A stretch of DNA of 21,187 bases. Origin: a virus. The stretch lies in IMG/VR virus record IMGVR_UViG_3300027777_001013, positions 1 to 21,187 of that record. One strand, 5' to 3'. The notes under the pieces are model-generated. The model was not told the DNA's origin. It worked only from the letters and a program-made list of their open reading frames with translations, and ran no database searches. Shown here piece after piece: positions 7,946 to 21,187 of this stretch; the first letter of the stretch is position 1; each line of letters begins with the position of its first letter. A program made the translations under genes and the position numbers.

Positions 7946-9952
7946 GTGGTATCACGCAGTCCAGATATTACCGAGCGCACGATAATTGATTTATCAGGTC
8001 GCGTATCTACATACTACGACCTTAACGCCAATGCCTTTGACATCGCTGTTGCTGGCTTGCCATTCATCATGGCTGTCACAGATAACACACCATACAAGCG
8101 ACAGACTGCAGAGTTTCGTGCTCAGCGCGTAGACCAAATGCGTGACCCAGGTGAGCACACCCTTGCTGGTTCAGGCTACTGGACTCGTTCACAATCTTCA
8201 TGGCACTACGGCGAAGGTATCCAATTCACCGAGCCAATGGAAGGTAACGATAACGAAGTACGCTTTCGTTTCCGTGATTCATCTGGCATAGATGTGTGGA
8301 CTCCAGGTCAGTTAAGCCTGCTTAAAAAGACCACACTTGTTCAGGCTTTTTCTGGCAAGGTAACACTTGCATCTGGTAATGATGCTGTAGCCAATAGAGT
8401 ATTTGCAATCAATGAAGATACCTATACCAGTGCAACCACTGCTATCTATAAGATTACATCTGCTGGTACATCTACTGCCTTTACAACTTATGCAAGCCTC
8501 GGCAATAAGACTGTCTTAAGTCAGACATCTGATGGTCAGACACTGTATGTATCTAATGACACAACAATCTATGACATTGATATGACAAGCGGTGCAGTAC
8601 ATGCTGCCTACACATGGAGCAAGACACCATCATCTGTCAAGTTAAAGTATGTTAAGTCTCGTGTTATTGCTGCCGTCACATACACAGATGGATTATCTGC
8701 AGCCTATGAACTCACTTTTCCTAACAAGGGTAGCGGTGCTGCAATCCTTACCAACACTCTTACCGCTATCAATGGTTCAACCACCCTTGCCAAGAACTGG
8801 ACATGGAGTGCCATCACAGAAGCAATCACATCTATCTACTTTGGTGGTAATGCTGGAGAACACTCAGCCCTATTCAAACTACAAGTAGATAATACTGGTG
8901 CCCTTGGCACGCTTGTAACTGTAGCCAACTTGCCACGCGGTGAAGTAATCACTGCGCTCTATGGCTACCTTGGTACATACATCATGCTTGGCACCAACAA
9001 AGGCGCACGCATTGCAACATCTGATACCAATGGCGACCTTACCTATGGTCCACTTGTTTACCATGATGAAGATGGTGTTTATGATTTTGAGGCACGCGAC
9101 TCTTATGTATGGGCAGGTAATACCAACGGAGTAAATGCTAGTTCTGGAACAACCCGTATTAACCTTGCTCAACCCATTACCCTTATCGGATATGCACAGC
9201 CTATTTCAACGGGTGTTTATGCCCGTGCTAACGATGTTTTTGCTGACTCAGTAACTGGGCGCGTGCAATCAATTCGTATCTTTGATTCACCAAGTCGTGT
9301 TGTGTTTTCTATCAATGGCTCAGGCGTATGGATGGAACACCCTACAGATTTAGTAGCCTCTGGTCAGATTCGCACTGGTCGTATCCGTTATGACACCATG
9401 GAAAACAAAGCATGGAAGCGTATCCGTATTCGTACCACTGACGATACAGCCAATGGTGATATTGAAGTCTATCAAATTGGACCTACAACCGACACAATTA
9501 TTACTACGCTATATGAAACTAATAGCACTGCAGCAGATATTGATTTAGGTAACGCCTATCCTAATGCATCACCTGATGCTTCATTTAAACTTGTTCTTAC
9601 TCGCAACACAACAGATGCAACCACTGGTCCTGTTGTTGTGGGTATTGCGGTGAAGGCTTTGCCTACACCTACACGCGCTCGCCTCTTACAGATTCCCTTG
9701 TTCTGCTATGACAAAGAGACTGATAAGACTGGCAACATTATTGGATATGAAGGCTACGCTAAGGAGCGTTTGCTTGCCCTTGAAACCATTGAAGCAAAGG
9801 GTGAGACAGTCATACTCCAAGACTTTAACGCTGGCGGTGACCCTTATGAAGTCATCATTGACCAGGTTACATTCACGCGCTCGACCCCCGCTAACCGTAA
9901 CTACTCAGGCTTTGGTGGCATTATCCAAATCATTGCCCGTACTGTCGTATAA
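7946..9952 (+). CDS. Large phage tail structural protein, 668 aa
   Basis: GTG 7946 is preceded by AAGGAG (7935-7940) with a five-base spacer. The N-terminal about 120 residues carry 'DLSGRVSTYYDLNANAFD', 'GSGYWTRSQSSWHYGEGIQF' and 'RFRDSSGIDVWTPGQLSLL', a pattern I associate with minor tail proteins of phages of Gram-positive hosts. The middle consists of repeated strand-rich units of about 45-60 residues containing 'TLYVSNDTTIYDID', 'TAIYKITSAGTSTAF' or 'LGTYIMLGTNKGARIATSD'. These look like blades of a beta-propeller. The C-terminus (about 480-668) is again beta-rich. A nozzle-like or receptor-contacting tail protein fits. It lies between the cassette terminator and the lysis genes. The structural role is well supported, the exact part is not. 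Confidence 0.7.
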   Translation: MVSRSPDITERTIIDLSGRVSTYYDLNANAFDIAVAGLPFIMAVTDNTPYKRQTAEFRAQRVDQMRDPGEHTLAGSGYWTRSQSSWHYGEGIQFTEPMEGNDNEVRFRFRDSSGIDVWTPGQLSLLKKTTLVQAFSGKVTLASGNDAVANRVFAINEDTYTSATTAIYKITSAGTSTAFTTYASLGNKTVLSQTSDGQTLYVSNDTTIYDIDMTSGAVHAAYTWSKTPSSVKLKYVKSRVIAAVTYTDGLSAAYELTFPNKGSGAAILTNTLTAINGSTTLAKNWTWSAITEAITSIYFGGNAGEHSALFKLQVDNTGALGTLVTVANLPRGEVITALYGYLGTYIMLGTNKGARIATSDTNGDLTYGPLVYHDEDGVYDFEARDSYVWAGNTNGVNASSGTTRINLAQPITLIGYAQPISTGVYARANDVFADSVTGRVQSIRIFDSPSRVVFSINGSGVWMEHPTDLVASGQIRTGRIRYDTMENKAWKRIRIRTTDDTANGDIEVYQIGPTTDTIITTLYETNSTAADIDLGNAYPNASPDASFKLVLTRNTTDATTGPVVVGIAVKALPTPTRARLLQIPLFCYDKETDKTGNIIGYEGYAKERLLALETIEAKGETVILQDFNAGGDPYEVIIDQVTFTRSTPANRNYSGFGGIIQIIARTVV

Positions 9953-10221: not shown

Positions 10222-10682
10222 GCGCAGCAAAAATTATTGAGATAGCCAAGAAAGAAGTTGGCTACAAAGAAGGTAAGAACAACGATACTAAGTATGGCGT
10301 TTGGTTCAAGATGAACAATGTACCTTGGTGCATGGAGTTCGTACAGTGGTGCATTGCACAGGCTGGTGAATCTGCTAAGGCTAAAAAGACAGCAGGTTGC
10401 CAAGACTTTGAAGCATGGGCTAAGCGTGAGGACCTCATCGTTCCAGTGAACATGGTTCAAGAAGGTGACATCCTTCTCTTTGACTTTACCAAAGGTGGTA
10501 AGTCAGAACATACTGGCTTTGCCCTTGGGTATAACCCACATACACATCTCATTGACACAGTAGAAGGTAACACTGCTGCTGATGGCAGTGGTAGTCAAGC
10601 AAACGGTGATGGGGTATACCTCAAACATCGTGCACCATCAACGGTGCGTTATGTAGTAAGACCGAAATGGAGTAACAAATGA
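10218..10682 (+). CDS. CHAP-domain endolysin (peptidoglycan hydrolase), 154 aa
   Basis: The whole protein is one CHAP/NlpC-P60-like domain. The opening 'IIEIAKKEVGYKEG' is followed by the catalytic Cys38 in 'VPWCMEFVQWC', then 'EGDILLFDF' (82-90), His98 in 'SEHTGFAL' and the polar Glu116/Asn118 in 'DTVEGNT'. These give the expected Cys-His-polar triad order. CHAP enzymes cut peptide bonds or the amide bond in peptidoglycan. No signal peptide or separate wall-binding domain is present, so release should depend on the holin encoded immediately after (ATGA overlap at 10679). The single-domain form is shorter than most endolysins of Gram-positive phages. Confidence 0.88.
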   Translation: MSAAKIIEIAKKEVGYKEGKNNDTKYGVWFKMNNVPWCMEFVQWCIAQAGESAKAKKTAGCQDFEAWAKREDLIVPVNMVQEGDILLFDFTKGGKSEHTGFALGYNPHTHLIDTVEGNTAADGSGSQANGDGVYLKHRAPSTVRYVVRPKWSNK

Positions 10683-10920: not shown

Positions 10921-11268
10921 GTTTTCCCAATCTTGATTGCGTTGTGTCTTAAGACGATGGCAGTTAGCACATAGGGTCTGTAAGTTTGATAACGAATTGT
11001 TATTATGGTTGCCGTCTATATGGTCAATGTCTAATTGACTGCGGTGGACTGCAACGAATCCACATTCTTCACAGTGGTCTTTCTTATGCTTGGATAATTT
11101 GACACGGTTGTTGTTACTCTTAGTTCTACATGAGTACGAACCACGCTGTTTCTTTTTGAGTCGTGTTGGTCCACATACTGCACAGATAGCAAAGCGGAGC
11201 GTTGGGTTCTTGAGTAGCAGACGATGCTGCTGTGTCTCATCCGCCTGTCGAGTAGAATCCGCTACCAT
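10900..11268 (-). CDS. HNH endonuclease with zinc fingers, 122 aa
   Basis: The C-terminal half has the classic ββα-metal arrangement: 'HCEECG' (C66, C69), 'LDIDHIDGNHNNNSLSNLQTLC' with the D82-H83 and N residues, and 'CANCH' (C100, C103, H104). Upstream, C29/C32 and C47 suggest another small zinc-binding piece. ATG at 11268 has GAGG a few bases upstream. Free-standing HNH proteins of this type in phages are often homing endonucleases; others serve in packaging. Its isolated position on the opposite strand between the lysis module and the early region favours a mobile or homing gene. It overlaps the small zinc-ribbon gene upstream by 32 bases. Confidence 0.82.
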   Translation of the reverse strand: MVADSTRQADETQQHRLLLKNPTLRFAICAVCGPTRLKKKQRGSYSCRTKSNNNRVKLSKHKKDHCEECGFVAVHRSQLDIDHIDGNHNNNSLSNLQTLCANCHRLKTQRNQDWENKKAPRN

Positions 11269-11404: not shown

Positions 11405-11537
11405 TAAGTAGTTTCCTCAAAGCATTTAGCCTACGGATACGAGCCTGGCGTTCTTTCTTAAGACCCAATTTAAATCCAAAAAAAATAGATGTGATGTTGC
11501 TCACAATAAATGCAAGCATATAAATTATTTTAATCAT
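11391..11537 (-). CDS. Small membrane protein, 48 aa
   Basis: ATG at 11537 to TGA at 11391-11393. The first 23 residues ('IKIIYMLAFIVSNITSIFFGF') are a hydrophobic helix. They are followed by a strongly basic tail ('LGLKKERQARIRRLNALRKLL') expected to stay in the cytoplasm. It overlaps the preceding gene's end and the next gene's start, so it fits the operon. I do not recognise a family. The AT-rich codons of the helix (a run of eight A's on the plus strand) explain the local composition. Confidence 0.6.
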   Translation of the reverse strand: MIKIIYMLAFIVSNITSIFFGFKLGLKKERQARIRRLNALRKLLNGKV

Positions 11538-11844: not shown

Positions 11845-11850
11845 TAGTAG

Positions 11851-11869: not shown

Positions 11870-11874
11870 AACAA

Positions 11875-12714
11875 ATGACACTTGAACTCGTAACTGGCAA
11901 GAACTATGTCAGCCACAGCGCCATGTCTACATGGCTTAGTTGCGGTTGGCAGTATTACTTGTCCCGTGTACAGCATGTGCCCGAAGCCCCATCCTACTGG
12001 TTAGCAGGGGGTAAGGCAGTACATGAGTGCACGGAAATCTATGACATCACACCCGAAGGCTTTGACCCAACGGCTGCATTTAAAGAGCGTTGGGAACATA
12101 ACTTCAAGATGTCTGATAACGGCATGCCTTGGCGTGCTGGTGGTCGTGCCACTAAAGCATTTCCAAACAAAGAAGATACTCAATGGTGGCTTGACAATGG
12201 ACCAAAGATGGTTGACTTCTGGATTCAGTTCCGTGAAGAAAGCGGTTGGAAGATTTGGGATACACCCGAAGGAATCCCCGCTATTGAAACTGAAATGAAT
12301 CAGATAGTCAAGGGCGTAAACATTAAGGCGTTCTTAGACCGCGTAATGGTTGCACCTACAGGCGAGTTGGTGATTGTAGATATTAAGACAGGAAGTGCTG
12401 AGCCAAAGTCTCAGACACAACTTGGTATCTATGCAATCCTTGTGGAGAAAACCTTTGGTATTCGCCCACAACTCGGCTCTTATTTCATGGCACGCACAGG
12501 AGAACTTACCCCGCCTGTCAACCTTGACCGCTACACTGAGGCACGCCTTGGTAATTGGGTCAAGGGTTTTGAAATCGCAGTAACCAATAACATCTTCATA
12601 CCAGCACCTGGGTTTATGTGTGGCACCTGCCCTGTAAATTCAGCATGCTATGCCGTGGGTGGAAAAGACTCACACCTTTATCCCGAAGTAACTATAGGAG
12701 AAACAAATGACTGA
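11875..12714 (+). CDS. Cas4/RecB-like PD-(D/E)XK exonuclease with Fe-S cysteines, 279 aa
   Basis: ATG 11875, six bases after AAGGAG, is preferred to the in-frame TTG at 11860. Nuclease motifs: 'GKAVHE' (H50), 'FLDRV' (D155), 'IVDIKTG' (D169, K171) and 'SQTQLGIYA' (Q182). Four cysteines are placed as in Cas4 and AddB-type nucleases: C23 in the first helix ('SCGWQYYL') and C249, C252, C258 near the C-terminus. They should hold a [4Fe-4S] cluster that ties the ends together. Such phage enzymes resect DNA ends for recombination-dependent replication. Its stop lies eight bases inside the next gene, which has the same GGAGAAACAAATGAC start region. No CRISPR array or Cas1 is nearby, so an adaptation role is not suggested. 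Confidence 0.87.
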   Translation: MTLELVTGKNYVSHSAMSTWLSCGWQYYLSRVQHVPEAPSYWLAGGKAVHECTEIYDITPEGFDPTAAFKERWEHNFKMSDNGMPWRAGGRATKAFPNKEDTQWWLDNGPKMVDFWIQFREESGWKIWDTPEGIPAIETEMNQIVKGVNIKAFLDRVMVAPTGELVIVDIKTGSAEPKSQTQLGIYAILVEKTFGIRPQLGSYFMARTGELTPPVNLDRYTEARLGNWVKGFEIAVTNNIFIPAPGFMCGTCPVNSACYAVGGKDSHLYPEVTIGETND

Positions 12715-13111
12715 ACCGCTATACCAAATCAATGTAAAGACACCTAAGGGTTCTTTGCTCAACATCCGTGCTGCATCAGAAGCCGAACTAGACCAAGCAC
12801 TTGATGGTCTTACCCTTCGCATCTCTGCTATCGCTGACCTTGAGTCAAGTATTGATGCTATCTGTGCAGTTGCTGGCGCTGGTCTTAAGCCAGAAATTAT
12901 TGAGCACTCACCAGTTGCTCAGGTTGCACCTTCATACCCTGCACCAGTGGGCTACAAGCCAGCAGGTGCAGTACCTGATTGCACATGTGGTGGTGGAGCA
13001 ATGCGCCATGTACCAGCAGGTATCGCTAAGTCAACAGGTCGCCCTTACAAGGCGTTCTATGCATGCCCTAAGCCACAGGGACAGGCTTGCCAAAACAAGG
13101 TGCCTGCATAG
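12707..13111 (+). CDS. Zinc-ribbon protein of the recombination/replication operon, 134 aa
   Basis: ATG 12707 overlaps the exonuclease stop and has GGAG upstream. Residues 1-65 form a mixed helix/strand domain ('VKTPKGSLLNIRAASEAELDQAL') and 66-90 a Pro-rich linker. Residues 91-134 are a zinc ribbon: C92-x-C94 in 'DCTCGGGAMRHVPAG', 'TGRPYKAFYAC' (C120) and C128. The ribbon 'cp.cG..m...paG.sk.tGrpY.aFyaCp' resembles those used by DNA-binding proteins of actinophages. A single-strand-binding or exonuclease-partner role is likely from the position between the exonuclease and the ATPase, but it is an inference. Confidence 0.6.
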   Translation: MTEPLYQINVKTPKGSLLNIRAASEAELDQALDGLTLRISAIADLESSIDAICAVAGAGLKPEIIEHSPVAQVAPSYPAPVGYKPAGAVPDCTCGGGAMRHVPAGIAKSTGRPYKAFYACPKPQGQACQNKVPA

Positions 13112-13114
13112 TCC

Positions 13115-13894
13115 ATGCGCCTACTCAGCCGTGCTATTAAGACAGAATCCCGAGGGGGTGCGACCCTTCCTGTGGTTTGGCACTCACTCGCTGCTCAACA
13201 AATAGCAATCCGTTACGGCGAGGTAAGCATGATTGCTGGACCGCCAGGGGCAGGTAAGTCAACGCTTGCTCTGTCCTTGGCAGTCCGTGCAAATGTGCCT
13301 ACGCTTTACATCTCAGCGGATACACACTCACACACGATGAGCCTTCGCTTACTTGCATTACTAACAGGAAAGCAACAAGCAGAAGTTGAACCTTTGATGG
13401 AGATGGATAGAGACTGGGCTGCACAAATGCTCAAGCCTGCTGACCACATCTATTGGGAGTTTGATTCAGCACCAACGCTTAAGGATATTGAGGATGCAGT
13501 TCTTGCTACTCGTGAACGCTTAGGTGAGGATGTTCGTTTGATTGTTCTTGACAATGCAGTAGATGTAACAATGGATTCACAAGATGAGTTTGGTGGCTTG
13601 CGTACCTTAATGAAGGAACTCAAGTGGTGGGCGAGAGAGACTGGAGCAGCAGTAGTTGTGTGTCACCACACCAGCGAAGCAGTGCCAGGCAATCCGTGTC
13701 CACCACAGCGCGCCCTTCATGGCAAGGTTGCACAGACACCATCACTTATCCTCACGGTTATCAATCAGGTATCCACCATGGGTGTATGCGCTGTGAAGAA
13801 TCGTTATGGACCAGCCGATGCCAATGGTGGTTCACCAGTATGGCTTTCGTATGACCCCGCAAGTATGCAGGTACTAGATGTAGGACAACCTTAG
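13115..13894 (+). CDS. DnaB/RecA-like replicative ATPase, 259 aa
   Basis: The core is a RecA fold: Walker A 'AGPPGAGKST' (41-50), 'TLYISADTH' (63-71), Walker B 'RLIVLDNAVD' (141-150), 'GAAVVVCHHTSE' (178-188) and a terminal 'KNRYGP' (228-233). This order and the 'KNR.G' loop match the C-terminal motor of DnaB-type helicases and related RadA-like ATPases. There is no DnaB N-terminal domain, so it is either a minimal phage helicase or a helicase-like accessory ATPase. Its neighbours (exonuclease, Zn ribbon, split primase) support a replication role. ATG 13115 has only a weak ribosome site and follows the previous stop by three bases. Confidence 0.78.
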   Translation: MRLLSRAIKTESRGGATLPVVWHSLAAQQIAIRYGEVSMIAGPPGAGKSTLALSLAVRANVPTLYISADTHSHTMSLRLLALLTGKQQAEVEPLMEMDRDWAAQMLKPADHIYWEFDSAPTLKDIEDAVLATRERLGEDVRLIVLDNAVDVTMDSQDEFGGLRTLMKELKWWARETGAAVVVCHHTSEAVPGNPCPPQRALHGKVAQTPSLILTVINQVSTMGVCAVKNRYGPADANGGSPVWLSYDPASMQVLDVGQP

Positions 13895-13903
13895 GAGATT
13901 TAA

Positions 13904-14254
13904 ATGGGAGCAATGTTCATGGAAAAGATTGATAGCCCGTGGGAGTTATCAGTTGTAGAAAATGCAGGCGAGATTCCTGCCAGCGCAGTAGAAGATGAAT
14001 TAGCAGTCAAGACTGCACCGTTGATGACAGATATTAAGTCACAACTTATGTTGGTTCCCCGCACACTTTCATATACAGTTGGGTGGAAAGCACTTGTTTG
14101 GAAAAATAAAGAGACTGGCGCATATCAGGACCTTACGGAAGAAGAATACGCAGCCTATGTTGATGGCGGAATCGTCTCTTACACCCGAGGCAGTGGCGAA
14201 AGCAATGCAAAAGATGAAGGTGCCGAAGGAGATTCAGGAAGTAATCCTCTCTGA
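13904..14254 (+). CDS. Hypothetical acidic protein of the replication operon, 116 aa
   Basis: ATG 13904 follows TAGGAGATTTAA, a good ribosome site. The N-terminal 45 residues are acidic. A central part 'LSYTVGWKALVWKNKETGAYQDLTEEEYAAYVDGGIV' (about 60-97) looks like a small folded domain. The C-terminus is a disordered Gly/Ser/Glu/Asp tail. I do not recognise a family. Codon use and tight spacing to the ATPase gene indicate a real gene. Its end overlaps the next gene by about 50 bases. Confidence 0.55.
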   Translation: MGAMFMEKIDSPWELSVVENAGEIPASAVEDELAVKTAPLMTDIKSQLMLVPRTLSYTVGWKALVWKNKETGAYQDLTEEEYAAYVDGGIVSYTRGSGESNAKDEGAEGDSGSNPL

Positions 14255-14504
14255 ACTACCCAATGTCATTGAGCAAATAGATGAAGCGACTAAGCAAATC
14301 TATGACCCCAATACTATTTGGTTAGAGGCAATGCAGTTTGCTGATTATGTTTCACAGTTCGGTAAACATTTGCAAGAGAATCATGGACCTGATTGCGTTG
14401 AGGAAATTGCACAGCAGTTAATAAATATATCTGAGTCATTTAAATTCATGGGCGAAGGTGCATTAAAAGTTATAGACGAGACGGAGGAAATACATGGCTC
14501 ATAG
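14205..14504 (+). CDS. Hypothetical helical protein, about 99 aa (start uncertain)
   Basis: The frame extends upstream to 14079, but that part is a shifted reading of the preceding gene. The first plausible starts are GTG 14193, ATG 14205 and ATG 14214. The product is acidic and almost entirely helical ('PKEIQEVILSELPNVIEQIDEATKQIY', 'CVEEIAQQLINISESFKFMGEGALKVIDE') with no recognised motif. It overlaps the glycosyltransferase start by 11 bases. A protein-protein role is possible. Evidence that it is real comes from its protein-like composition and from the operon packing. Confidence 0.5.
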   Translation: MQKMKVPKEIQEVILSELPNVIEQIDEATKQIYDPNTIWLEAMQFADYVSQFGKHLQENHGPDCVEEIAQQLINISESFKFMGEGALKVIDETEEIHGS

Positions 14505-15240
14505 TTCTAACGAAACACTATCTATTGGATGGTGTGACAATGGTATGGTGGATGGTAAGTTCACAGAAGGTTTGATGTACACAACCATTACTGCACCTAC
14601 GCGTAAGTTGGCAGTCAACAATGCTATTCGTGTGCAAGGTAATCAAATTGGCAGACAACGACAGGCTCTGCTTGACATGTGGTATGACCAAGTAAAGACC
14701 GACTGGTTGCTGTGGGTGGACTCTGACATTGTGCTCACCCTTGATGTGCTTGAGATGTTGTGGAAAACAGCAGACAAAATAGCGCGACCAGTTGTATCGG
14801 GTGTGTACTTTATTTCCAAGCAGATGGAGTCATCGTTGATGCAACCTATGCCCGCACTATTCAATGAGACTGGTGATGAGTTTCAGATTAGATACCTTCA
14901 CCCACTACCAGCCAGTGAAGTTGTTGAGGTTGATAACGCAGGGCTTGGCTTGACTATGATGCACCGCAGTGTGGTTCCTTTATTAAGACAGAAGTTCCCT
15001 AATGAATCTATGTTTGCTGAGATTGAAAACCTTGGTGACAAGTTTGTTGGTGAGGACATTGTGTTCTTCCGTAAGTTAAAAGCAGCAGGTGTCAAGGTAC
15101 ATGCACATACAGGTGCACGGGTCAAGCACATGAAGCGCTTTGCCTATGATGATAACTACTATGCACTGTACTGGCAGGCTGCTCAAGCAGCAGAGCGACA
15201 GGCAAAGGAGAAGGCTAATGACAACACAGCAAAAGAGTAA
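14494..15240 (+). CDS. GT-A family glycosyltransferase, 248 aa
   Basis: ATG 14494 follows GGAGG (in GACGGAGGAAATAC). 'WLLWVDSDIVL' (71-81) contains the DxD metal/nucleotide-sugar site (D76-S-D78) after the usual 'R.....AL..W' helix. 'NAGLGLTMMHRSVV' and 'FVGEDIVFFRKLKAAGVKVHAHTGARVKHM' provide the acceptor region and the ED motif found in family-2-like transferases. There is no membrane helix, so it works in the cytoplasm. Phages use such enzymes to glycosylate modified DNA bases, virion proteins or host surfaces. Its place between DNA-metabolism genes makes DNA modification worth considering, but no base-hydroxymethylating enzyme is visible in this window. Confidence 0.75.
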   Translation: MAHSSNETLSIGWCDNGMVDGKFTEGLMYTTITAPTRKLAVNNAIRVQGNQIGRQRQALLDMWYDQVKTDWLLWVDSDIVLTLDVLEMLWKTADKIARPVVSGVYFISKQMESSLMQPMPALFNETGDEFQIRYLHPLPASEVVEVDNAGLGLTMMHRSVVPLLRQKFPNESMFAEIENLGDKFVGEDIVFFRKLKAAGVKVHAHTGARVKHMKRFAYDDNYYALYWQAAQAAERQAKEKANDNTAKE

Positions 15241-15583
15241 CAAGCGTAGGGGTGCAGCCTTTGAGATTGACTTGGCTGACCATCTTGTTGAAGGAGAATA
15301 CGAAGCGCAACGCTTGCCTCGTGCTGGTCGCAACGACATTGGTGATGTCTTTCTTAAGACAGTAAATGATTCGTATGTCATTGAAGCCAAGGCACCACGG
15401 CGTGATGGCAAGATAGATTTATCTGGCTGGATTCGTGAGGCTATGGTTGAGGCAGAGAACTATCGCATCTCCAAGAAATTAAAGGTAGCACCTACGCCAT
15501 TGGTTATTATCAAGGCATCTAACAAGGGGATTGAGGAGTCGTATGTAGTGCAAAGACTTAGTGATGCTCTTGCAAAACTCTAA
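15218..15583 (+). CDS. Holliday-junction-resolvase-like PD-(D/E)XK nuclease, 121 aa
   Basis: ATG 15218 is preceded by AAGGAG (about eight bases) and lies inside the end of the glycosyltransferase gene. The fold signature is complete: 'KRRGAAFEIDLADHL' with E16, 'RAGRNDIGDVF' with D43, 'YVIEAKA' with E56-x-K58, then a basic helix. This order matches archaeal Hjc and phage resolvases of the VRR-NUC/HJR group, which cut branched DNA before packaging. The enzyme is small, as expected for a dimer. The motif TTAAGACAG lies inside the gene at 15354. Confidence 0.8.
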   Translation: MTTQQKSNKRRGAAFEIDLADHLVEGEYEAQRLPRAGRNDIGDVFLKTVNDSYVIEAKAPRRDGKIDLSGWIREAMVEAENYRISKKLKVAPTPLVIIKASNKGIEESYVVQRLSDALAKL

Positions 15584-15953
15584 GCATGACCTCGCTAAAG
15601 TATTAGAACACTATGGCTTTGATATTCCACAGGGTAGGCGTGGCTGGATAACAGTACGCTGTGCCTTCCACGGCGACAGAGTAAAATCTGCTCGTCTTAA
15701 TACAGAAAACGGTGGGTTCCGTTGCTTCGGCTGTGACATGGCGGGAGATGTGTACTCAATTATTATGAAGAAAGAAGGAGTTACTTTCAATGAGGCTAAG
15801 CAAATCGCAGAGAGAATTACTGGAGAGAGCAACGGAGAACTACGCTCAAAACCTAGAGGAGATTCTTCCGTATCTGGAAACGAGAGGTATCACTCAACCG
15901 ACCGCAACTATGTTTCGCCTCGGCTTCGTAAAAACTCCAGAGGTGGGGCATGA
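15564..15953 (+). CDS. Primase zinc-finger subunit (DnaG N-terminal type), 129 aa
   Basis: Residues 1-87 form the CHC2 zinc domain of DnaG-type primases: C33-x2-H36 in 'VRCAFHGD' and C54-x2-C57 in 'GGFRCFGCDMAGDVYSII', then the 'GVTFNEAKQIAERI' helix. The catalytic TOPRIM part is in the next gene, in a different frame (+1). From about residue 88 the product is Ser/Arg/Asn-rich and looks like a by-product of the overlap. GTG 15561 is an alternative start; neither has a clear ribosome site. It overlaps the resolvase gene by 20 bases. Either the primase works as two polypeptides, or a frameshift (real or a sequence error) joins them. Confidence 0.75.
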   Translation: MLLQNSKHDLAKVLEHYGFDIPQGRRGWITVRCAFHGDRVKSARLNTENGGFRCFGCDMAGDVYSIIMKKEGVTFNEAKQIAERITGESNGELRSKPRGDSSVSGNERYHSTDRNYVSPRLRKNSRGGA

Positions 15954-16410
15954 GCCATACATTGGTAAGTTATCTATCCCATACCTGACACCATCAGGCA
16001 CCATTGACATACGCTTTCGTGCCTTAAGTCCTGATGCTACGGGTCCGAAGTATATGTCTCGACCTGGGGCTACTACTCACATCTTTAATATCAACGCATT
16101 GGGTAATGCTGATGACACGCTAGTGGTATGTGAAGGTGAATTAGATACAGTCATTGCTACACAAGCAGGCTTCACCGCAGTGGGATTGCCAGGGGCTAAC
16201 AACTGGAAACCTTTTTACTCTCGCGTGCTTGCTGATTGGGGCAAGGTAATCTTACTTTGTGATGGTGACAACGCAGGGCGTGAGATGGCTAAGAATCTAA
16301 GTCGTGAGTTGGATAATGTGTTCCCTGTTTTTATGCCTGAGGGACAAGATGTTAATGATGTGTACCTTGCCGAAGGTGCAGACGGGTTGCGTAAGAGGGC
16401 TGGTGTCTAG
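15790..16410 (+). CDS. Primase catalytic (TOPRIM) subunit, 206 aa
   Basis: ATG 15790 has its own AAGGAG at 15775-15780, nine bases upstream, although it lies 164 bases inside the zinc-finger gene. Residues 8-35 ('RELLERATENYAQNL', 'YLETRGIT') and 'MFRLGFV' correspond to the start of the DnaG RNA-polymerase domain. 'LVVCEGELDTVIA' (E115) and 'ILLCDGDNAGREMA' (D158, D160) are the TOPRIM metal ligands, and 'EGQDVND' closes the domain. The helicase-binding C-terminus of cellular DnaG is absent, as usual in phages. It should prime replication with the zinc-finger protein and the DnaB-like ATPase. Confidence 0.83.
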   Translation: MRLSKSQRELLERATENYAQNLEEILPYLETRGITQPTATMFRLGFVKTPEVGHEPYIGKLSIPYLTPSGTIDIRFRALSPDATGPKYMSRPGATTHIFNINALGNADDTLVVCEGELDTVIATQAGFTAVGLPGANNWKPFYSRVLADWGKVILLCDGDNAGREMAKNLSRELDNVFPVFMPEGQDVNDVYLAEGADGLRKRAGV

Positions 16411-16797
16411 GTGGCTAACCTCTCATCCTTTGACCTTGACTTTGGATATGGTAAGGGTGGCGAGAACTTAGTAGAAGAACTACTCACCAAAGGTAGAACA
16501 GTAGAAGTAAAGCGCGACCGCAAATGGCACATGACTGGCAACTTATATGTTGAAGTTGAGTGTTGGTATCAGAGGTCGCAGTCATGGGAACCATCGGGTT
16601 TGATGGCAAGTGAAGCAGATTACTGGGCGTTTGTATTGGAGCACGGCGTACTTATGGTGCCTCGTTCTCATGTACACTATGCATTAAGACACAATGGTAG
16701 AGAGATTACATGTGAGATTCCCCCGAACAGAAGCAAGGGCTATCTCATTACAGTTGATGATTTACTAGAGGCAATGAGGAAACTTAAAAATGAGTGA
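16411..16797 (+). CDS. Small PD-(D/E)XK nuclease-like protein, 128 aa
   Basis: The GTG start directly follows the primase stop. 'LDFGYGKGGENLVEELLTKGRTVEVKRDRKWHMTGNLYVEVE' (about 9-50) holds E18, then E32-x-K34, an arrangement like that of small resolvase-type endonucleases. The following 'SGLMASEADYWAFVL' and a strand-rich C-terminus resemble phage proteins of about 120 residues that I recall being labelled as nucleases. It overlaps the sigma-like gene by eight bases. If active it is the third PD-(D/E)XK protein in this operon. The role (resolvase, DNA repair or host DNA degradation) is open. Confidence 0.6.
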   Translation: MANLSSFDLDFGYGKGGENLVEELLTKGRTVEVKRDRKWHMTGNLYVEVECWYQRSQSWEPSGLMASEADYWAFVLEHGVLMVPRSHVHYALRHNGREITCEIPPNRSKGYLITVDDLLEAMRKLKNE

Positions 16798-17449
16798 GAA
16801 GGATGCGTTGTGGGAAGTTGTCTATCGGTGTGCTCGTGCATCGGCAACTAGATGTAATCGCATACACCGCAACTTAGTCACCACTGATGATGTGTTCCAA
16901 CACCTGAACCTATGGGCGCTAGAACATTGGCATAAGATTGAGGAGTGGGAAGAACAACAGTCGTTGGTATTCAAACTCAAGCGCACCTTTAACAATGAAG
17001 CGCAGAAGTATGCAGCGAAAGAGCGTGCATATAAGAGCAAGTCCACACCATCGGATGCGTTCTACTATACACATGAGATACTACAAGAGTTACTCAAAGA
17101 TGTATGGAACTACATGTATTGGGCTGACTCTATTTCACATAACCCTGAGGGTGAGTTCGTTAGTAAGACATCAAAGCCTAGCGAGGGTATGAATCGTGAG
17201 GCTATGCTGTCAGATGTATCGTTCGGTCTTAAGAAACTAAATAAGCAAGACCAGTTGCTATTGAATCGTAGGTTTGCAGATGGAGGTATAGACATAGATG
17301 CATTGGCTATCGAGTATTCCGTTAGTGACGAGGCTATTCGTAAGAGGGTTTCTCGTGCGCTTACAAAGTTACAAGAACGATTGGGTGGTGAACAACCACA
17401 ATGGAACAACCGCAGATACCGCAAACCCGACAAGGAGCAAGAGCAATGA
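16790..17449 (+). CDS. Sigma-70-like factor with region-4 HTH, 219 aa
   Basis: The C-terminal part 'LKKLNKQDQLLLNRRFADGGIDIDALAIEYSVSDEAIRKRVSRALTKLQERL' (about 148-198) is a sigma region-4 helix-turn-helix: a dimer-like first helix, 'iDalAieysVSdeaIRKRVsRA' as the turn and recognition helix, and a closing helix. The N-terminal 110 residues are helical and Trp-rich ('DDVFQHLNLWALEHWHKIEEWEEQ') and could be a diverged region 2. Phages use such factors to redirect host RNA polymerase. ATG 16790 overlaps the previous gene by eight bases. Its end (ATGA) overlaps a tiny gene. A transcription factor without sigma activity is the alternative. Confidence 0.72.
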   Translation: MSEKDALWEVVYRCARASATRCNRIHRNLVTTDDVFQHLNLWALEHWHKIEEWEEQQSLVFKLKRTFNNEAQKYAAKERAYKSKSTPSDAFYYTHEILQELLKDVWNYMYWADSISHNPEGEFVSKTSKPSEGMNREAMLSDVSFGLKKLNKQDQLLLNRRFADGGIDIDALAIEYSVSDEAIRKRVSRALTKLQERLGGEQPQWNNRRYRKPDKEQEQ

Positions 17450-17574
17450 CAATAACAAGTGAGTTTAATTGGCGTATGTTTTGTATTGGTGTAGTCCACT
17501 ATAAGAATCTCAAGTGCGTAGAGTTCTACCTCGGTGGCTTAGCCGTTGGGATTTGGTGGGGTATCGCTAAGTGA
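17446..17574 (+). CDS. Tiny hypothetical protein, 42 aa
   Basis: ATG 17446 forms an ATGA overlap with the sigma-like gene and has AAGGAG about ten bases upstream (in GACAAGGAGCAAGAGCA). The stop TGA at 17572-17574 overlaps the GTG of the next gene. The product is Trp/Cys/Gly-rich with a hydrophobic C-terminal half ('VEFYLGGLAVGIWWGIAK') that could touch a membrane. No family is recognised. The perfect packing between two genes is the main evidence. Confidence 0.55.
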   Translation: MTITSEFNWRMFCIGVVHYKNLKCVEFYLGGLAVGIWWGIAK

Positions 17575-18110
17575 TTATTGGATTGAGTGGATACGCACAG
17601 TCAGGTAAAGATGCAACATCTAATTTGTTGTGTCTTAATTACGAATACACACGCCGTGCTTTTGCTGACCCGATGAGACATGCTTTAACTATTATCAACC
17701 CTAAGTTGGATAGCATCACTCGTGTCTCTGATTATGTAGATGACTATGGCTGGGATATAGCAAAGAAGAATCCCGAAGTTCGCAGACTATTACAGGTACT
17801 CGGTACGGATTTTGGTCGCCGTATGATTGGCAATGATGTATGGATTAAGATGGCGATGTCTGACTTAAGACAGGGTGACCGCGTTGTTATCTCTGATGTT
17901 CGTTTTCCTAATGAGGCTCAAGCAATCAAGGCTATGGGCGGTAGCATGTGGCGTATTAACAGGCACAATCACAGTGCAGTTAACAATCATGCATCTGAAC
18001 GCGCTATGGATAACTACATGTTCGACCATGTGATTTACAATGACGGAACTCTTGATGACTTAAGTGATGAAGTATTTATGTTGGCTAAAGAACTCGGTCT
18101 TAATACATAG
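17571..18110 (+). CDS. Deoxynucleoside monophosphate kinase, 179 aa
   Basis: The GTG start at 17571 overlaps the previous stop (GTGA). 'IIGLSGYAQSGKD' carries the P-loop (about 7-14). 'RRAFADPMRHAL' (28-39), 'LLQVLGTDFGRRMIGNDVWIK' (73-93) and 'VVISDVRFPNEAQAI' (105-119) are the hallmarks of the phage dNMP kinase family (T4 gp1-like), which phosphorylates dNMPs for phage DNA synthesis. Length is within the usual range. This is the last gene of the rightward operon; a hairpin lies 45 bases downstream, before the converging WhiB gene. Confidence 0.85.
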   Translation: MIIGLSGYAQSGKDATSNLLCLNYEYTRRAFADPMRHALTIINPKLDSITRVSDYVDDYGWDIAKKNPEVRRLLQVLGTDFGRRMIGNDVWIKMAMSDLRQGDRVVISDVRFPNEAQAIKAMGGSMWRINRHNHSAVNNHASERAMDNYMFDHVIYNDGTLDDLSDEVFMLAKELGLNT

Positions 18111-18154
18111 AGAAACCCACCAGAGACAGGAGAGAATCTGATGGGCTTTTCTAT

Positions 18155-18194
18155 GTACACCAACCCCACGCTTCCCCTTCGGGGGCTGGTGTAC
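18155..18194. terminator. Hairpin between converging operons, probable bidirectional stop
   Basis: GTACACCA (18155-18162) pairs perfectly with TGGTGTAC (18187-18194). Inside, after an A-C mismatch, CCCC (18164-18167) can pair with GGGG (18182-18185); a competing small hairpin CCCC-TTC-GGGG lies within the loop. Neither strand has a proper T-run behind the stem, so it is not a classical intrinsic terminator. It could still block transcription or protect 3' ends of both mRNAs. Confidence 0.5.
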
Positions 18195-18206
18195 CTTAGA
18201 ATCATA

Positions 18207-18551
18207 TCATGTGTTGTGCTGTGGGTCAGATACCATGATGTTGTTGCGCTTGCGTATGGCGAACCGCTCGAAGGGTGTCGTTGCTCCCCATACTCCGTAC
18301 CTTTCCATCGCTACGCCCCACTCTAGGCAGGCTTCCATCACTGGGCAGTCCACACAGATACGCTTGAGTAACTCGGCTTCGCCTTCCTCAAACTTATCCT
18401 GTGCTGGGTAGAAGAACTCGGTGTCTATGCCTTGGCATGATGCACCCTTCCATTTGTTTGAGTCATACCTTAGGCGATAAGAGATAACCTGATTGCCTTT
18501 GTAACGAGATGTGCTCTGACTTAATACATGAAAGAACTTTATCTTAAACAT
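18207..18551 (-). CDS. WhiB-family Fe-S transcription regulator, 114 aa
   Basis: I use ATG 18551, in a TAATG junction with the upstream transglycosylase gene; a GTG at 18560 is the alternative. The four cluster cysteines are C39, C66, C69 and C75 ('ASCQGIDTEFF' and 'RICVDCPVMEACLEW'), followed by the WhiB turn 'RYGVWGATT' and a basic C-terminal tail ('FAIRKRNN'). WhiB proteins are confined to actinobacteria and their phages, bind a [4Fe-4S] cluster and act with the main sigma factor. The WhiB of mycobacteriophage TM4 represses host whiB2 and causes superinfection exclusion. It is the last gene of the leftward operon. Confidence 0.9.
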   Translation of the reverse strand: MFKIKFFHVLSQSTSRYKGNQVISYRLRYDSNKWKGASCQGIDTEFFYPAQDKFEEGEAELLKRICVDCPVMEACLEWGVAMERYGVWGATTPFERFAIRKRNNIMVSDPQHNT

Positions 18552-18991
18552 TAGTACCACCCCATCGCAAGGTGATGAGCATAAGCCTTGCAGATTGCGC
18601 CTTTGCCATAGTGTCTATCTATGTACTTGAGTCCAGCATCTACCTGCTTATATCCGTCTTGCGTGGGGAGGGTGTTGATGTTGCGCCATGTGCTTGGCTT
18701 TAGTTGTGCGATACCCATGGCTCCGCCATTTTTGTTGAGCGCATGCGGTCGCCAGTTACTCTCGCGTATCCACAATTCATAAAGACATGGATACTGTTCC
18801 AGTTCGTTGCGTGCTATCAACCTGTCCAATGCATAGCGTTGATAATCATTCTGATAGTAAGCAACTATCTTGCCATAAGGCGGTGTCTTAAATGGTGATG
18901 CTGGCTTAAGACATAGAATAAGTCCTAAGATAATTGCTGTTGCTATCCACAGTCGGGCGTGTGGGTGAATCTGTCTTAAGTCATTACGCAT
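18551..18991 (-). CDS. Membrane-anchored lytic transglycosylase (SLT type), 146 aa
   Basis: ATG 18991 overlaps the previous gene by eight bases; an in-frame ATG at 19021 would add ten residues. Residues 13-29 ('RLWIATAIILGLILCLK') are a signal or anchor helix. Then come 'CLYELWIRESNWRPHALNKNGGAMGIAQLKPSTW' (69-102) with the catalytic Glu77, the 'GAMGIAQ' loop, and 'DAGLKYIDRHYG' near the end. This is the lysozyme-like SLT fold, which cuts glycan strands of peptidoglycan. The gene is far from the late lysis module and lies among early-type genes, so a role in cell-wall remodelling or entry is as likely as lysis. The motif TTAAGACAG follows its start. Confidence 0.83.
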   Translation of the reverse strand: MRNDLRQIHPHARLWIATAIILGLILCLKPASPFKTPPYGKIVAYYQNDYQRYALDRLIARNELEQYPCLYELWIRESNWRPHALNKNGGAMGIAQLKPSTWRNINTLPTQDGYKQVDAGLKYIDRHYGKGAICKAYAHHLAMGWY

Positions 18992-19160
18992 TACTGTCCA
19001 ACTTTCTCTCGGCTTCGGCATGCAAGAAACTATCTATTGCTTTTTCTTCCATCTCTTTCTGCTTATCTGTGCAGTAATCACACTTTTCATACATGTAGTT
19101 CATTACCTTGGGGTTGGTCACTACTGTGCCACAACCAAGGCATTGCATGAGGATAGTCAT
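18984..19160 (-). CDS. Small two-knuckle zinc protein, 58 aa
   Basis: ATG at 19160 has AAGGAG five bases upstream and forms an ATGA overlap with the previous gene. Cysteines C7/C10 ('QCLGCGTVV') and C27/C30 ('KCDYCTDK') form a likely zinc ribbon. The last 28 residues are a charged helix ('KQKEMEEKAIDSFLHAEAERKLD'). Function unknown; small phage zinc proteins often bind host proteins or nucleic acid. Its stop overlaps the transglycosylase start. Confidence 0.65.
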   Translation of the reverse strand: MTILMQCLGCGTVVTNPKVMNYMYEKCDYCTDKQKEMEEKAIDSFLHAEAERKLDSNA

Positions 19161-19438
19161 GGCATCTCCTTCTTGGTGTGTGCCTCCAATGAATCAAGGA
19201 AATATCCCACACTCATGGTTCCTTCTTCGTCAATCCTATCTGCCCAATGTGGTGCCTCAATCCATCTACCTTCAAGGTCAAGCCATTGAATCTCAAAGCC
19301 ATCGTGGTCATCCCAATGTAGGATAACTCGTATCTCTTTGCCATCAAAGGTGAGGTTCATGTCTTTGTCGTATGCAGTTTGTGTCTTAAGTAATGCTCCG
19401 ACCTCTATTCCTTTTAGTTCTACTTCATGTATTGCCAT
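19157..19438 (-). CDS. Hypothetical protein, 93 aa
   Basis: I choose ATG 19438, which follows GGGAG (in GATGGGAGAACAGTAAG) and lies one base after the upstream stop. The longer frame to 19543 only re-reads the previous gene. The product is acidic, mixed alpha/beta, with 'LTFDGKEIRVILHWDDHDGFEIQWLDLEGRWIEAPHWADRI', a Trp- and Asp-rich strand region. No family recognised. The sequence CTTAAGACA, one base different from the repeated motif, encodes 'LLKT' near residue 18. Confidence 0.6.
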   Translation of the reverse strand: MAIHEVELKGIEVGALLKTQTAYDKDMNLTFDGKEIRVILHWDDHDGFEIQWLDLEGRWIEAPHWADRIDEEGTMSVGYFLDSLEAHTKKEMP

Positions 19439-19439
19439 C

Positions 19440-19604
19440 TTACTGTTCTCCCATCTCGTCATGTAATCTGTCAGGGTCAGGCTCTCCGCAATCGCAGTTA
19501 CCGCAATCGCAGTGTGACTCCCCATCTTTTGCTTCGCATACATCGCATGGTTGGTTGATACCTAAGGCAACATCGTCACCTTCTAGGTAGCGTGGCTCAC
19601 TCAT
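19440..19604 (-). CDS. Cysteine-rich acidic mini-protein, 54 aa
   Basis: ATG at 19604 follows ACAGGAGAAAACAA, the ribosome-site cassette repeated in this operon. Six cysteines lie in 20 residues: C20, C23, C32, C34, C37 and C39 ('CDVCEAKDGESHCDCGNCDC'), in an otherwise acidic chain. This resembles a compact metal-binding knot, and no known family comes to mind. It overlaps its upstream neighbour by four bases and ends one base before the next ATG. Confidence 0.6.
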   Translation of the reverse strand: MSEPRYLEGDDVALGINQPCDVCEAKDGESHCDCGNCDCGEPDPDRLHDEMGEQ

Positions 19605-19750
19605 TTGTTTTCTCCTGTCTGTAGTTTGTTTTCGTACTGTTCCATTATTGCATGCCAGTAATCAAAGTCTTTATCATTTGTGCTGGCGTTTCGTTGCTCT
19701 CTTGCTCGCTTAGCAAGGGTGCGTGTGGCTTTCATCTCTAGTGAATTCAT
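19601..19750 (-). CDS. Small basic helical protein, 49 aa
   Basis: ATG at 19750 forms an ATGA overlap with the previous gene, and its own stop forms the same with the next. The N-terminal half is basic ('MKATRTLAKRAREQRN'), the C-terminal half contains 'DFDYWHAIMEQYENKL'. The last residues 'LQTGENK' are encoded by the ribosome site of the following gene. Function unknown. Confidence 0.55.
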   Translation of the reverse strand: MNSLEMKATRTLAKRAREQRNASTNDKDFDYWHAIMEQYENKLQTGENK

Positions 19751-20040
19751 GATTCATCTTCTGTCTTAAGCACTGACAATAAAGATTCAAGGTGGTTAAG
19801 TGCCTGTTGCTTGCGCTTGTAGTTAGTACCTAGCATTTCGTTAGCCTTCTTAAGTGTGCTACCTCGTGCTGTCATCTTCATTCCTGTCTTAAGTTCTAAC
19901 TTAATCCACGATACGAGAGAGACGAGAACATATAAGTCCACGCCAATACCGCTTGCGCTGGTCATCTCTCCGTTCTCGTTGAAGTCCATGTGCTTATGAC
20001 CTTCGGTGATTGCTTCTAGTGTGCGCTCTGGTAGTGCCAT
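19747..20040 (-). CDS. Hypothetical protein, 97 aa
   Basis: ATG at 20040 follows CAGGAGATAACTAAC. The longer frame to 20073 re-reads the end of the upstream gene. The chain has a middle hydrophobic stretch 'VDLYVLVSLVSWIKLEL' (perhaps an amphipathic helix), followed by basic 'KMTARGSTLKKANEMLGTNYKRKQQALNHLESLL'. The motif TTAAGACAG occurs twice here (19884 and 19761), encoding 'LKTG' and 'LKTE'. No known family. Confidence 0.6.
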   Translation of the reverse strand: MALPERTLEAITEGHKHMDFNENGEMTSASGIGVDLYVLVSLVSWIKLELKTGMKMTARGSTLKKANEMLGTNYKRKQQALNHLESLLSVLKTEDES

Positions 20041-20041
20041 G

Positions 20042-20188
20042 TTAGTTATCTCCTGTCTTAAGTAGTAATTCATTGGCTAATTCAATGGCTCTTTGCTTGG
20101 TTGCTACGCAGTAAATCTGGCAGTTAATCTTAGGGTTGAGCGCCACGCGCCACTCTTTACCTGACTTATAGATTGCTACTTCGCTCAT
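20042..20188 (-). CDS. Small hypothetical protein, 48 aa
   Basis: ATG at 20188 lies in a TAATG junction, with GACAGGAGATAACT as ribosome site. The product starts 'MSEVAIYKSGKEWRVALNPK' (two strands) and continues into a helix 'KQRAIELANELLLKTGDN'. The compact strand-strand-helix pattern would make a small folded domain. Its last six residues are the same as those of the upstream gene because both are encoded by the same junction sequence. Function unknown. Confidence 0.58.
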   Translation of the reverse strand: MSEVAIYKSGKEWRVALNPKINCQIYCVATKQRAIELANELLLKTGDN

Positions 20189-20376
20189 TAGTTATCTCCT
20201 GTCTTAAGTACGAACCCTGCGTAGTATCCATCTTTGATGTCGTTCTTCATCCACTGTTCTGCGTTGGCTGTCCACTTTTCTACATCCACTGTTCGGCTCT
20301 CGCCATTCTGTGTGACTGTATAGGTGGTGCCTTCTGTTGTGATTGTGTCCCCGTTAGGGTGTGTCCATGTTGCCAT
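20188..20376 (-). CDS. Small hypothetical protein, 62 aa
   Basis: ATG at 20376 follows ACAGGAGAAAACAA and is preferred to the frame extension to 20436, which crosses the ribosome site and the upstream gene's end. The N-terminal 35 residues are Thr-rich with alternating hydrophobic positions ('GDTITTEGTTYTVTQNGESRTVDVEKW'), suggesting a beta hairpin. A short helix and 'YYAGFVLKTGDN' follow. No family recognised. Confidence 0.58.
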   Translation of the reverse strand: MATWTHPNGDTITTEGTTYTVTQNGESRTVDVEKWTANAEQWMKNDIKDGYYAGFVLKTGDN

Positions 20377-20404
20377 TTGTTTTCTCCTGTCTAGTTGGTA
20401 GTGA

Positions 20405-20497
20405 TTACTCTGCCACTTGTTGGCATAGTAGGTCAAGCATTTGTCGTGTGATGTTGGTCACATTCTGTCTTAATACATTATCTTGGGCAGTCATCAT
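20405..20497 (-). CDS. Possible micro-protein, 30 aa
   Basis: ATG at 20497 (or 20494) to TAA at 20405-20407. It fits between its neighbours, overlapping the upstream gene by 20 bases. The sequence is a single amphipathic helix ('DNVLRQNVTNITRQMLDLLCQQVAE'). There is no ribosome site at a useful distance (GGAG is about 20 bases away), so it may depend on coupling. The alternative is that this is spacer that happens to stay open. The motif TTAAGACAG lies inside it at 20465-20473. Confidence 0.35.
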   Translation of the reverse strand: MMTAQDNVLRQNVTNITRQMLDLLCQQVAE

Positions 20498-20603
20498 AAG
20501 GGAACTGTTCTTTCTCCTCACAAGTACAGAAGTTAAACCTCTCTACCTGTGTAGCGTGGGTAAGTTGTGCCAGTTCGCCCCATGAAATTGAATCATCGCT
20601 CAT
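20478..20603 (-). CDS. Small Cys-containing acidic protein, 41 aa
   Basis: ATG at 20603 sits in a TAATG junction with the previous gene, which also provides GGGAG upstream. The product is acidic with three cysteines near the end ('FNFCTCEEKEQFPYDDCP'), perhaps a metal site. No family recognised. Packing on both sides supports it. Confidence 0.5.
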   Translation of the reverse strand: MSDDSISWGELAQLTHATQVERFNFCTCEEKEQFPYDDCPR

Positions 20604-20764
20604 TAGTTGTGCTCCCATTTAAGAAGCGTGCATGTCCAGCCTTCGCTTGCCTGATGGCATTTGCCATACACGCGATGGTGTGTGGTGTAGAACTGAATCG
20701 CTAGTGTGAGGGCGATAAGTATTAAGACAGAACGCACTCGCTTGCCTCGCTTGTTAAGTCTCAT
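20603..20764 (-). CDS. Small secreted or membrane-anchored protein, 53 aa
   Basis: ATG at 20764 is preceded by AAGGAG (eight-base spacer) and overlaps the previous stop. It begins with a basic stretch 'MRLNKRGKRVR', then a hydrophobic helix 'SVLILIALTLAIQFY' (12-26). A short outside part with two cysteines (C36 and C45) follows, which could form a disulfide. This is the layout of a signal-anchor peptide. A role at the cell envelope is inferred; the transglycosylase later in the operon has a similar N-terminal anchor. Confidence 0.58.
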   Translation of the reverse strand: MRLNKRGKRVRSVLILIALTLAIQFYTTHHRVYGKCHQASEGWTCTLLKWEHN

Positions 20765-20910
20765 CGCTTGTACTCCTTTGCATGTGAGCATTGGTCAAGA
20801 GGGATAAGGCAGTCACCGCAGAGTGTGCCTTGATGTACCTCGCAGTAGTACCATGTGTCGTCTGTCTGTGCCCCACAATTTGAGGCGTGGCAGATAAGTG
20901 GCTTAGTCAT
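20761..20910 (-). CDS. Small zinc-finger (B-box-like) protein, 49 aa
   Basis: ATG at 20910 directly follows the upstream stop, and the TGA overlaps the next start (ATGA). Potential zinc ligands are C7, H8, C12, C23, H26, C31, C34, C41 and H43 ('CHASNC', 'YYCEVHQGTLCGDCLIPLDQCSH'), enough for two zinc ions in a cross-brace. The pattern is like a minimal B-box or treble clef. Function unknown, probably protein binding. Confidence 0.6.
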   Translation of the reverse strand: MTKPLICHASNCGAQTDDTWYYCEVHQGTLCGDCLIPLDQCSHAKEYKR

Positions 20911-21187
20911 TTACGCCACCGACTTTAGTTCTGTCTTAATACCTGACTCCATACCTGCCTTGATTGCATTGACCACGGCGAGGACTGTCTCCAGTTTCCA
21001 GTTCTTATATGTCTCGCGGTATCCGAAGTCGTCAATGTAGGAATTGAATCGCTCCTGCCCTGTGAGTTGGGCAATGAGGCTGTTGAGTTCCTTAACGGCT
21101 GGCTGATACTGCTCGCGTACCACCTTACGGCGGAGGTGTGCCTGATGTTTTTGGTCGCGGGTATCTATCCAACCTTTGACCTTGTAT
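20911..21187 (-). CDS. Hypothetical protein, C-terminal 91 aa (partial)
   Basis: The frame stays open to the right edge of the window, so the start lies outside. A GTG at 21123 is an internal alternative, but the residues before it ('KVKGWIDTRDQKHQAHLRRK') look protein-like and charged. The visible part is helical and polar, with 'LNSLIAQLTGQERFNSYIDDFGYRETYKNWKLETVLAVVNAIKAG'. It ends with 'GIKTELKSVA', where the repeated motif TTAAGACAG encodes 'KT'. No family recognised. Confidence 0.6.
   Translation of the reverse strand, partial: YKVKGWIDTRDQKHQAHLRRKVVREQYQPAVKELNSLIAQLTGQERFNSYIDDFGYRETYKNWKLETVLAVVNAIKAGMESGIKTELKSVA

Follow-up and report, generated by a model that had tools for sequence, protein, structure and literature searches.

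The window analysed here, a viral contig of 21,187 bases (IMG/VR record IMGVR_UViG_3300027777_001013), is partial compared with its complete relatives of ~40 kb. Tail and lysis genes, called like all phage genes in this work with a simple open reading frame caller, occupy its left part. The right part encodes a RecB/Cas4-like exonuclease, a DnaB-like helicase, a glycosyltransferase, a RusA-like resolvase, a primase, a sigma-like factor, a deoxynucleoside monophosphate (dNMP) kinase, WhiB and a transglycosylase-like protein (the SLT gene). A nine-base word, TTAAGACAG, recurs in this right, early part, and we describe it here as one half of an 18-bp palindromic element that is replaced by other words in closely related phages. 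Homologues of the window helicase and primase occur in cluster A mycobacteriophages and in the relatives of these phages in Propionibacterium, Streptomyces and Rhodococcus. Of the isolates found, the Planktophila phages E7 and F5 (OX376640/OX376641, PMC10202952) are closest, and the host of the window phage therefore likely is among the 'Ca. Nanopelagicales', which are among the most abundant freshwater bacteria and have phages whose gene control is almost undescribed. The likenesses of E7 and F5 to the phages studied here comprise related replication genes (helicase ~50% identical), a sigma-like factor, WhiB, 39-kb genomes and 45% GC; F5 also has the GACAGGAGA leaders described below but, in the stretch examined, no dense palindromic word.

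An 18-bp palindromic element in the early region

The over-representation of TTAAGACAG, first pointed out in an earlier note made from the letters of the window, was borne out by comparison with dinucleotide shuffles, which averaged 0.29 copies and never exceeded 2, against the 14 exact copies in the window. The reversed word had no copies in the window, and 34 copies were found when one mismatch was allowed (6.3 expected). As described in that note, 13 of the 14 copies fall within 12383-20939, the remaining one being at 8511, and 12 point the same way as the surrounding genes (exceptions 8511 and 20722). This strand bias is real, persisting at about 3:1 in the leftward operon, but is partly due to coding permissiveness, since one antisense frame of the word contains TAA, and partly to overlap with a ribosome-site leader. 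The extended leader, GACAGGAGA, precedes many starts in these phages (window 20041-20061 and 20187-20207; L121) and is considered independent of the motif because isolate F5 has 9 copies of it without the dense word. Copies 20053 and 20199 lead directly into the ribosome site TTAAGACAGGAGATAACTA(A)ATG. The mixture of reading frames is about as claimed, though clear-cut only for seven I/L-K-T and three L-R-Q copies, with two copies intergenic in the present gene list. Protein constraint, which the note had set aside, is not the cause for most sites. Two copies are also present in some genomes of the second word class introduced below (class B) and look partly protein-driven, namely 12383, in the PD-(D/E)XK exonuclease at its DIKTG motif, and 13137, in the helicase at RAIKT.

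The flanks of 599 TTAAGAC occurrences in class A genomes, the class that includes the window, hold a weaker mirror copy of the core. When expectation-maximisation was seeded with the asymmetric core and run on 164 kb of early sequence taken from 14 genomes, it settled on a matrix that is symmetric and 18 bp long, TT(C/A)TGTC-TTAA-GACA(G/T)AA. Counting 14 elements therefore understates the case, as the 9-mer is half of a palindromic element with 31 sites in the window at score 12, where 0.18 are expected from motif-poor relatives; the same matrix and score gave one site in an entire class B genome. Scoring covered both strands, so that palindromic sites are counted twice and the site number is half of the reported sum. 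To the right of position 11,860, in the early half, lie 25 of the 31 sites. Site density is 2.5 per kb in early and 0.4 per kb in late genes, and class A genomes have ~35 sites per early region, compared with ~30 in the partial window record. The information of the element is limited to -7..+10 around the core, and no second element was detected within 60 bases of it.

The two arms of the element are not independent. Near-full matches on both arms were never seen, although ~13 are expected by our estimate from the tabulated counts, and when 2.9 million viral contigs were searched for exact matches to the near-perfect palindrome, a single contig came up. The outer arm pairs are complementary at or below the expected frequency, and this lack of co-variation is evidence against an RNA hairpin. 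While ~85% of sites are in coding sequence, sites are enriched between genes, which hold 14.5% of sites but 4.8% of sequence, and also towards the 3´ ends of genes (27% vs 9%). In the leftward operon sites are co-oriented with transcription 219:68, a ratio due in part to coding constraint. Class A sites also cluster within 20 bp upstream of starts, but only a minority of sites are near starts, and about half of the leftward-operon sites are more than 200 bp upstream of the next start.

Exclusive site words among related phages

Among 80 related contigs (relatives being the best 80 of each scan), many carry 7-19 copies of TTAAGACAG per 10 kb, whereas others, with helicases 91-92% identical, carry none and instead have tens of copies per 10-20 kb of the palindrome GTTTAAAC. 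Complete or near-complete class A genomes have ~30-53 TTAAGAC and mostly 1-5 GTTTAAAC (10 in one genome, G005), and class B genomes have 27-58 GTTTAAAC and 2-6 TTAAGAC; a class A record truncated in the early region (G023) has 19 TTAAGAC. In place of either symmetric form, a third class, C, uses GTTTAGAC/GTCTAAAC (33 and 25 copies vs 0 and 0). The words taken to represent classes A and B were TTCTGTCTTAAGACAGAA and CGTTTAAACG, respectively. Helicases of the three classes are 81-97% identical to that of the window. The 77 loci over 9 kb divide into 38 class A, 37 class B and 2 class C, labels that rest on word counts, and one contig mixes class B and class C words. Because the classes need five changes on the helicase tree, the word has switched repeatedly. 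Since many of the contigs are near-copies of each other, p-values computed as if genomes were independent are generous. In a more distant phage (helicase 52% identical; L200:5700-11850), a 16-bp palindrome, ATCCGTTTAAACGGAT, is repeated ~14 times, for the most part where genes of the leftward operon meet; other relatives, with helicases 50-58% identical, have no dense word.

We compared sites between classes by aligning the early rightward regions of 19 genomes. The earlier note had proposed that the motif be discarded if synonymous sites within it were not conserved in relatives, and the motif withstood this check. At the window sites the exact heptamer is kept in 60% of other class A genomes, where the background over all other heptamers is 25% and that over heptamers of matched composition 27%; the class B value is 8% (background 16%). 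Six of 12 conserved class B positions are at most 11 columns from a conserved class A position, with 0.74 expected by shifting (p = 3e-4), and three coincide at 4 columns (p = 0.002), in a test that counts positions, not genomes. At some of these places the codons change while the amino acids do not. All 13 aligned class A genomes encode the dNMP kinase residues C-L-N as TGT CTT AAT, whereas four of the six from class B use TGT TTA AAC, and in A-R-L-N just upstream of the primase gene, CTT AAT is found in eight class A genomes and TTA AAC in all six class B genomes. This Leu-Asn switch, CTT-AAT vs TTA-AAC, is a coordinated synonymous change between classes and strong evidence for DNA-level selection within coding sequence. 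In the resolvase the amino acids differ, with LKT in most class A and LPA in most class B genomes. Chance or base composition as the cause of the motif was ruled out by the shuffles, the word counts in relatives and the matrix scan, and a protein motif alone was rejected for most sites given the several frames and the class-dependent codons.

Mapping the class difference

One pair of relatives, G025 (class A) and G026 (class B), is 97% identical over the lysis-to-primase stretch, the terminase/portal and the head genes (L184-L187). The two differ in the module that runs from the sigma-like factor through the leftward operon, nearly all class sites included, and in a tail module. The latter is an inconsistent class marker because another genome, G019, is class B yet has class-A-type large tail-region proteins. 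Two small overlapping genes 3´ of the helicase, X (13904-14254) and Y (14079-14504), were detected in motif-bearing but not in motif-poor relatives; they are unlikely to set the class, since they are inside the stretch that is 97% identical between G025 and G026.

Gene trees covered 70-77 loci. The dNMP kinase tree splits class A from classes B and C with one change, whether or not site residues are masked, and 6-7 class changes are needed for the sigma-like factor and 4-5 for the helicase. The approximately unbiased (AU) test rejects a class A clade in the tree of the sigma-like factor (p = 3e-5), which led us to reject this gene as the class determinant, but does not reject one for WhiB (p = 0.57) or SLT (p = 0.36). 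The dNMP kinase was also rejected; its tree follows class, but it is an enzyme whose gene is itself site-rich, and we read the agreement as a consequence of the sites or of linkage. The gene sets of the leftward operon differ as well, with a SprT-like protein carrying HExxH and small proteins in class A and, in classes B and C, a glutamine amidotransferase, an amidoligase, DUF3846 and a SprT-like protein that lacks HExxH. Given the G025/G026 differences, the gene trees and these operon gene sets, the class determinant, if phage-encoded, most likely is in the module from the dNMP kinase to the leftward operon. No other transcription factor than WhiB is recognisable in this class-linked module, and WhiB is a candidate at most as the putative site reader. 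The SprT-like protein lacking HExxH is the first leftward-operon gene in class B/C (e.g., L073:10243-10788, L188:13355-13900), and its class A counterpart, which retains HExxH, likewise heads the operon; both were considered as determinants and set aside. A structure model of the class A SprT-like protein had moderate confidence and no confident PDB match, and the class B/C model was too poor to use. A scan of 53 early and small proteins revealed no helix-turn-helix (HTH) or repressor family, Rep homologue, methyltransferase or GntR protein among the best 25 families listed.

Predicted role of the sites and its alternatives

The palindromic word and its class-dependent replacement point to predicted control sites. 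Among the roles suggested in the earlier note, that of a binding site for a nucleoid or phage protein fares best as a prediction, in that the element is palindromic, class-specific and conserved, with positions that coincide across dialects. On the pattern of the sites, we lean slightly towards dispersed operator or stoperator-like sites for a dimeric DNA-binding protein that would slow or block early transcription, in dialects where protein and word would switch together. A sequence-specific protein, presumably a dimer and presumably phage-encoded, would occupy the 18-bp dyad-symmetric sites, and occupied sites would impede transcription elongation across the early operons, like the 'stoperators' of cluster A phages, so that early expression would be damped or shut off together. 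Each lineage would keep one site word, and a switch of the recognition protein would accompany site replacement, often at the same positions. The avoidance of near-consensus palindromes would be expected if very tight blocks were harmful, and fits a need for moderate affinity. Dispersed elongation-damping operators fit the palindromic form, the DNA-level conservation, the early density, the enrichment at gene ends and between genes, and the bias to the transcribed strand. Several observations weigh against them: most sites are inside coding sequence, unlike L5 stoperators; the sigma-like factor and WhiB aside, no HTH protein is recognisable; the proteins scanned included no recognised integrase; and bacterial genomes, searched for prophages and hosts, hold no relative of the window helicase. 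On the last two grounds a lysogeny repressor is not to be expected, and from them we infer that the phages are virulent and that the sites would serve early shut-off, not lysogeny.

By analogy, the known system nearest in function is that of the cluster A stoperators. The L5-like stoperators are 13-14 bp long, lack dyad symmetry, are bound by monomers, number 20-30 per genome and are located in promoters and short intergenic gaps (PMC6550527, PMC9283540). Features common to both systems are many short dispersed sites (20-30 or more copies of one word per genome), an orientation that follows transcription, here partly through coding constraint, homologous helicase and primase modules, and words that differ between related phages. 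The cluster A words vary together with the repressor. In contrast to cluster A, the matrix here is symmetric and 18 bp long instead of an asymmetric 13-14 bp word, the sites are enriched in but not mostly confined to short intergenic gaps, and no Rep protein with an HTH and a stoperator domain was among the best 25 families listed for the 53 proteins. We therefore name the sites 'stoperator-like', not a stoperator system. The words of classes B and C also fit the GT-N-TA-N-AC skeleton of the GntR/HutC-type operator NyGTMTAKACNy (PMC4494728), the M/K positions only in part, whereas class A misfits its spacing.

A control word that changes as a whole between close relatives makes it possible to test directly how a recognition protein and its dozens of sites would co-evolve, and the word may also be a genomic marker of phages able to exchange genes or exclude one another. 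A bolder extension, which we regard as doubtful, is that in virulent freshwater phages class-specific palindromic roadblocks in early coding DNA shut off early transcription, and that dialect incompatibility limits gene exchange and acts as a lineage barrier. If so, dialect incompatibility would separate otherwise near-identical phage lineages.

The sites might instead be read by a host-encoded DNA-binding protein, with dialects marking phages of different host lineages. The lack of a recognised phage regulator, the travelling of class with a whole accessory leftward operon and the tail-module difference between G025 and G026 would all be in line with a host reader. We nevertheless consider it unlikely, as G019 combines class B with class-A-type tail-region proteins and a class A operator scan of 84,980 species genomes gave 26 matches, about chance, and none in Actinomycetota, though the scan covered only the near-perfect form, which the phages themselves avoid, and so is weak evidence against a host factor.

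Other suggested roles are less likely. A Chi-like or linker-like sequence at gene boundaries that aids module exchange would be consistent with module swapping in these phages and with the enrichment of sites between genes and at gene ends, and the earlier suggestion of a recombination signal keeps some standing on this account. It leaves the dialect switch unexplained, and the extended palindromic matrix, the exclusive coordinated dialects and the sites in conserved codons are unexpected of linkers, making this role rather improbable. We are similarly sceptical of an action in RNA, at translation starts, in processing or as a hairpin. The transcribed-strand bias, the copies leading into ribosome sites and the clustering upstream of class A starts speak for it, but an mRNA processing or stability signal, as the note had also suggested, is disfavoured by the absence of outer-arm co-variation and the avoidance of near-perfect palindromes, as well as by the distance of many leftward-operon sites from the next start and the lack of an Rfam match. 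The start-associated sequences (SAS) of cluster K mycobacteriophages, non-palindromic GGGATAGGAGCCC located 3-7 bp before starts, and the extended SAS (ESAS), which contain 17-bp imperfect inverted repeats (PMC3203893), resemble the present sites in that they recur across the non-structural half and in part directly precede ribosome sites, and, for ESAS, in the imperfect inverted repeats. They differ in that the sites here are palindromic and a minority are near starts.

A promoter element for the phage sigma-like factor, also proposed previously, is very improbable. All motif-bearing phages with the region covered encode this factor, and sigma70-like promoter matches in window 10800-21187 are fewer than in shuffles (6 vs 16.9, standard deviation 3.8). 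Yet the second, fixed-spaced element of a sigma-factor promoter is missing within 60 bp, sites occur inside genes at ~3 per kb, motif-poor relatives also encode the factor, and its tree rejects the class split in the AU test above. A signal for DNA modification or restriction is the least credible role, since GTTTAAAC is a perfect 8-bp palindrome of the type read by such enzymes but is strongly enriched, whereas restriction sites are normally depleted in phages, and no methyltransferase was recognised in the scan.

The sites of the window and the genes discussed above are listed in Table 1.

Table 1. Sites of the 18-bp element and selected genes in the window, with position weight matrix (PWM) scores
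Coordinates	Strand	Feature	PWM score	Remarks
6014..6031	-	predicted 18-bp site	13.8	late region
7048..7065	-	predicted site	15.9	late region
8509..8526	-	predicted site	17.1	exact TTAAGACAG copy 8511, opposite to gene
10649..10666	+	predicted site	16.1	lysis gene end
10942..10959	.	predicted site	12.1	core GTCTTAAGAC
11451..11468	+	predicted site	21.0	intergenic
12376..12393	+	site	14.8	exact copy 12383, on catalytic DIKTG codons of exonuclease, partly protein-driven
12878..12895	.	predicted site	15.6	
13137..13145	+	exact copy	below threshold	helicase RAIKT codons; left half poor, probably not a full site
14976..14993	+	site	20.5	exact copy 14983
15347..15364	+	site	18.2	exact copy 15354; LPA in place of LKT in class B
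15690..15707	-	site	13.2	class B GTTTAAAC at same alignment column (ARLN, synonymous switch)
16017..16034	.	predicted site	16.2	in primase
16677..16694	+	site	15.8	
17222..17239	-	site	17.9	in sigma-like gene; class B site 10 columns off
17628..17645	-	site	17.2	dNMP kinase C-L-N codons; TGT CTT AAT (A) vs TGT TTA AAC (B)
17858..17875	+	site	19.2	exact copy 17865; class B GTTTAAAC in same alignment cluster
18053..18070	.	predicted site	14.3	
18093..18110	-	site	16.8	at dNMP kinase stop
18514..18531	-	site	18.8	in whiB
18899..18916	+	site	17.8	in SLT gene
18969..18986	-	site	18.8	exact copy 18971
19379..19396	-	site	17.8	
19759..19776	-	site	18.1	exact copy 19761, near gene 3´ end
19882..19899	-	site	18.1	exact copy 19884
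20051..20068	-	site	16.6	exact copy 20053, leads into ribosome site
20197..20214	-	site	19.8	exact copy 20199, gene junction, leads into ribosome site
20463..20480	-	site	20.4	exact copy 20465
20715..20732	+	site	17.3	exact copy 20722, opposite to gene
20929..20946	-	site	21.1	exact copy 20931
16790..17449	+	sigma-like factor		tree not following motif class
17571..18110	+	dNMP kinase		sole rightward gene tested with tree following motif class exactly
18207..18560	-	WhiB		sole recognisable transcription factor in class-linked module

We also noted a strong terminator-like hairpin at window 10888-10917, at the boundary between the lysis genes and the early region, which is present in relatives G002 and G010 as well. 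Finally, a 76.6-kb IMG/VR record among the relatives (G018; L202-L205), inspected for host DNA, apparently consists of two actinophage genomes fused near 39.5 kb and contains a 108-bp repeat (99%).

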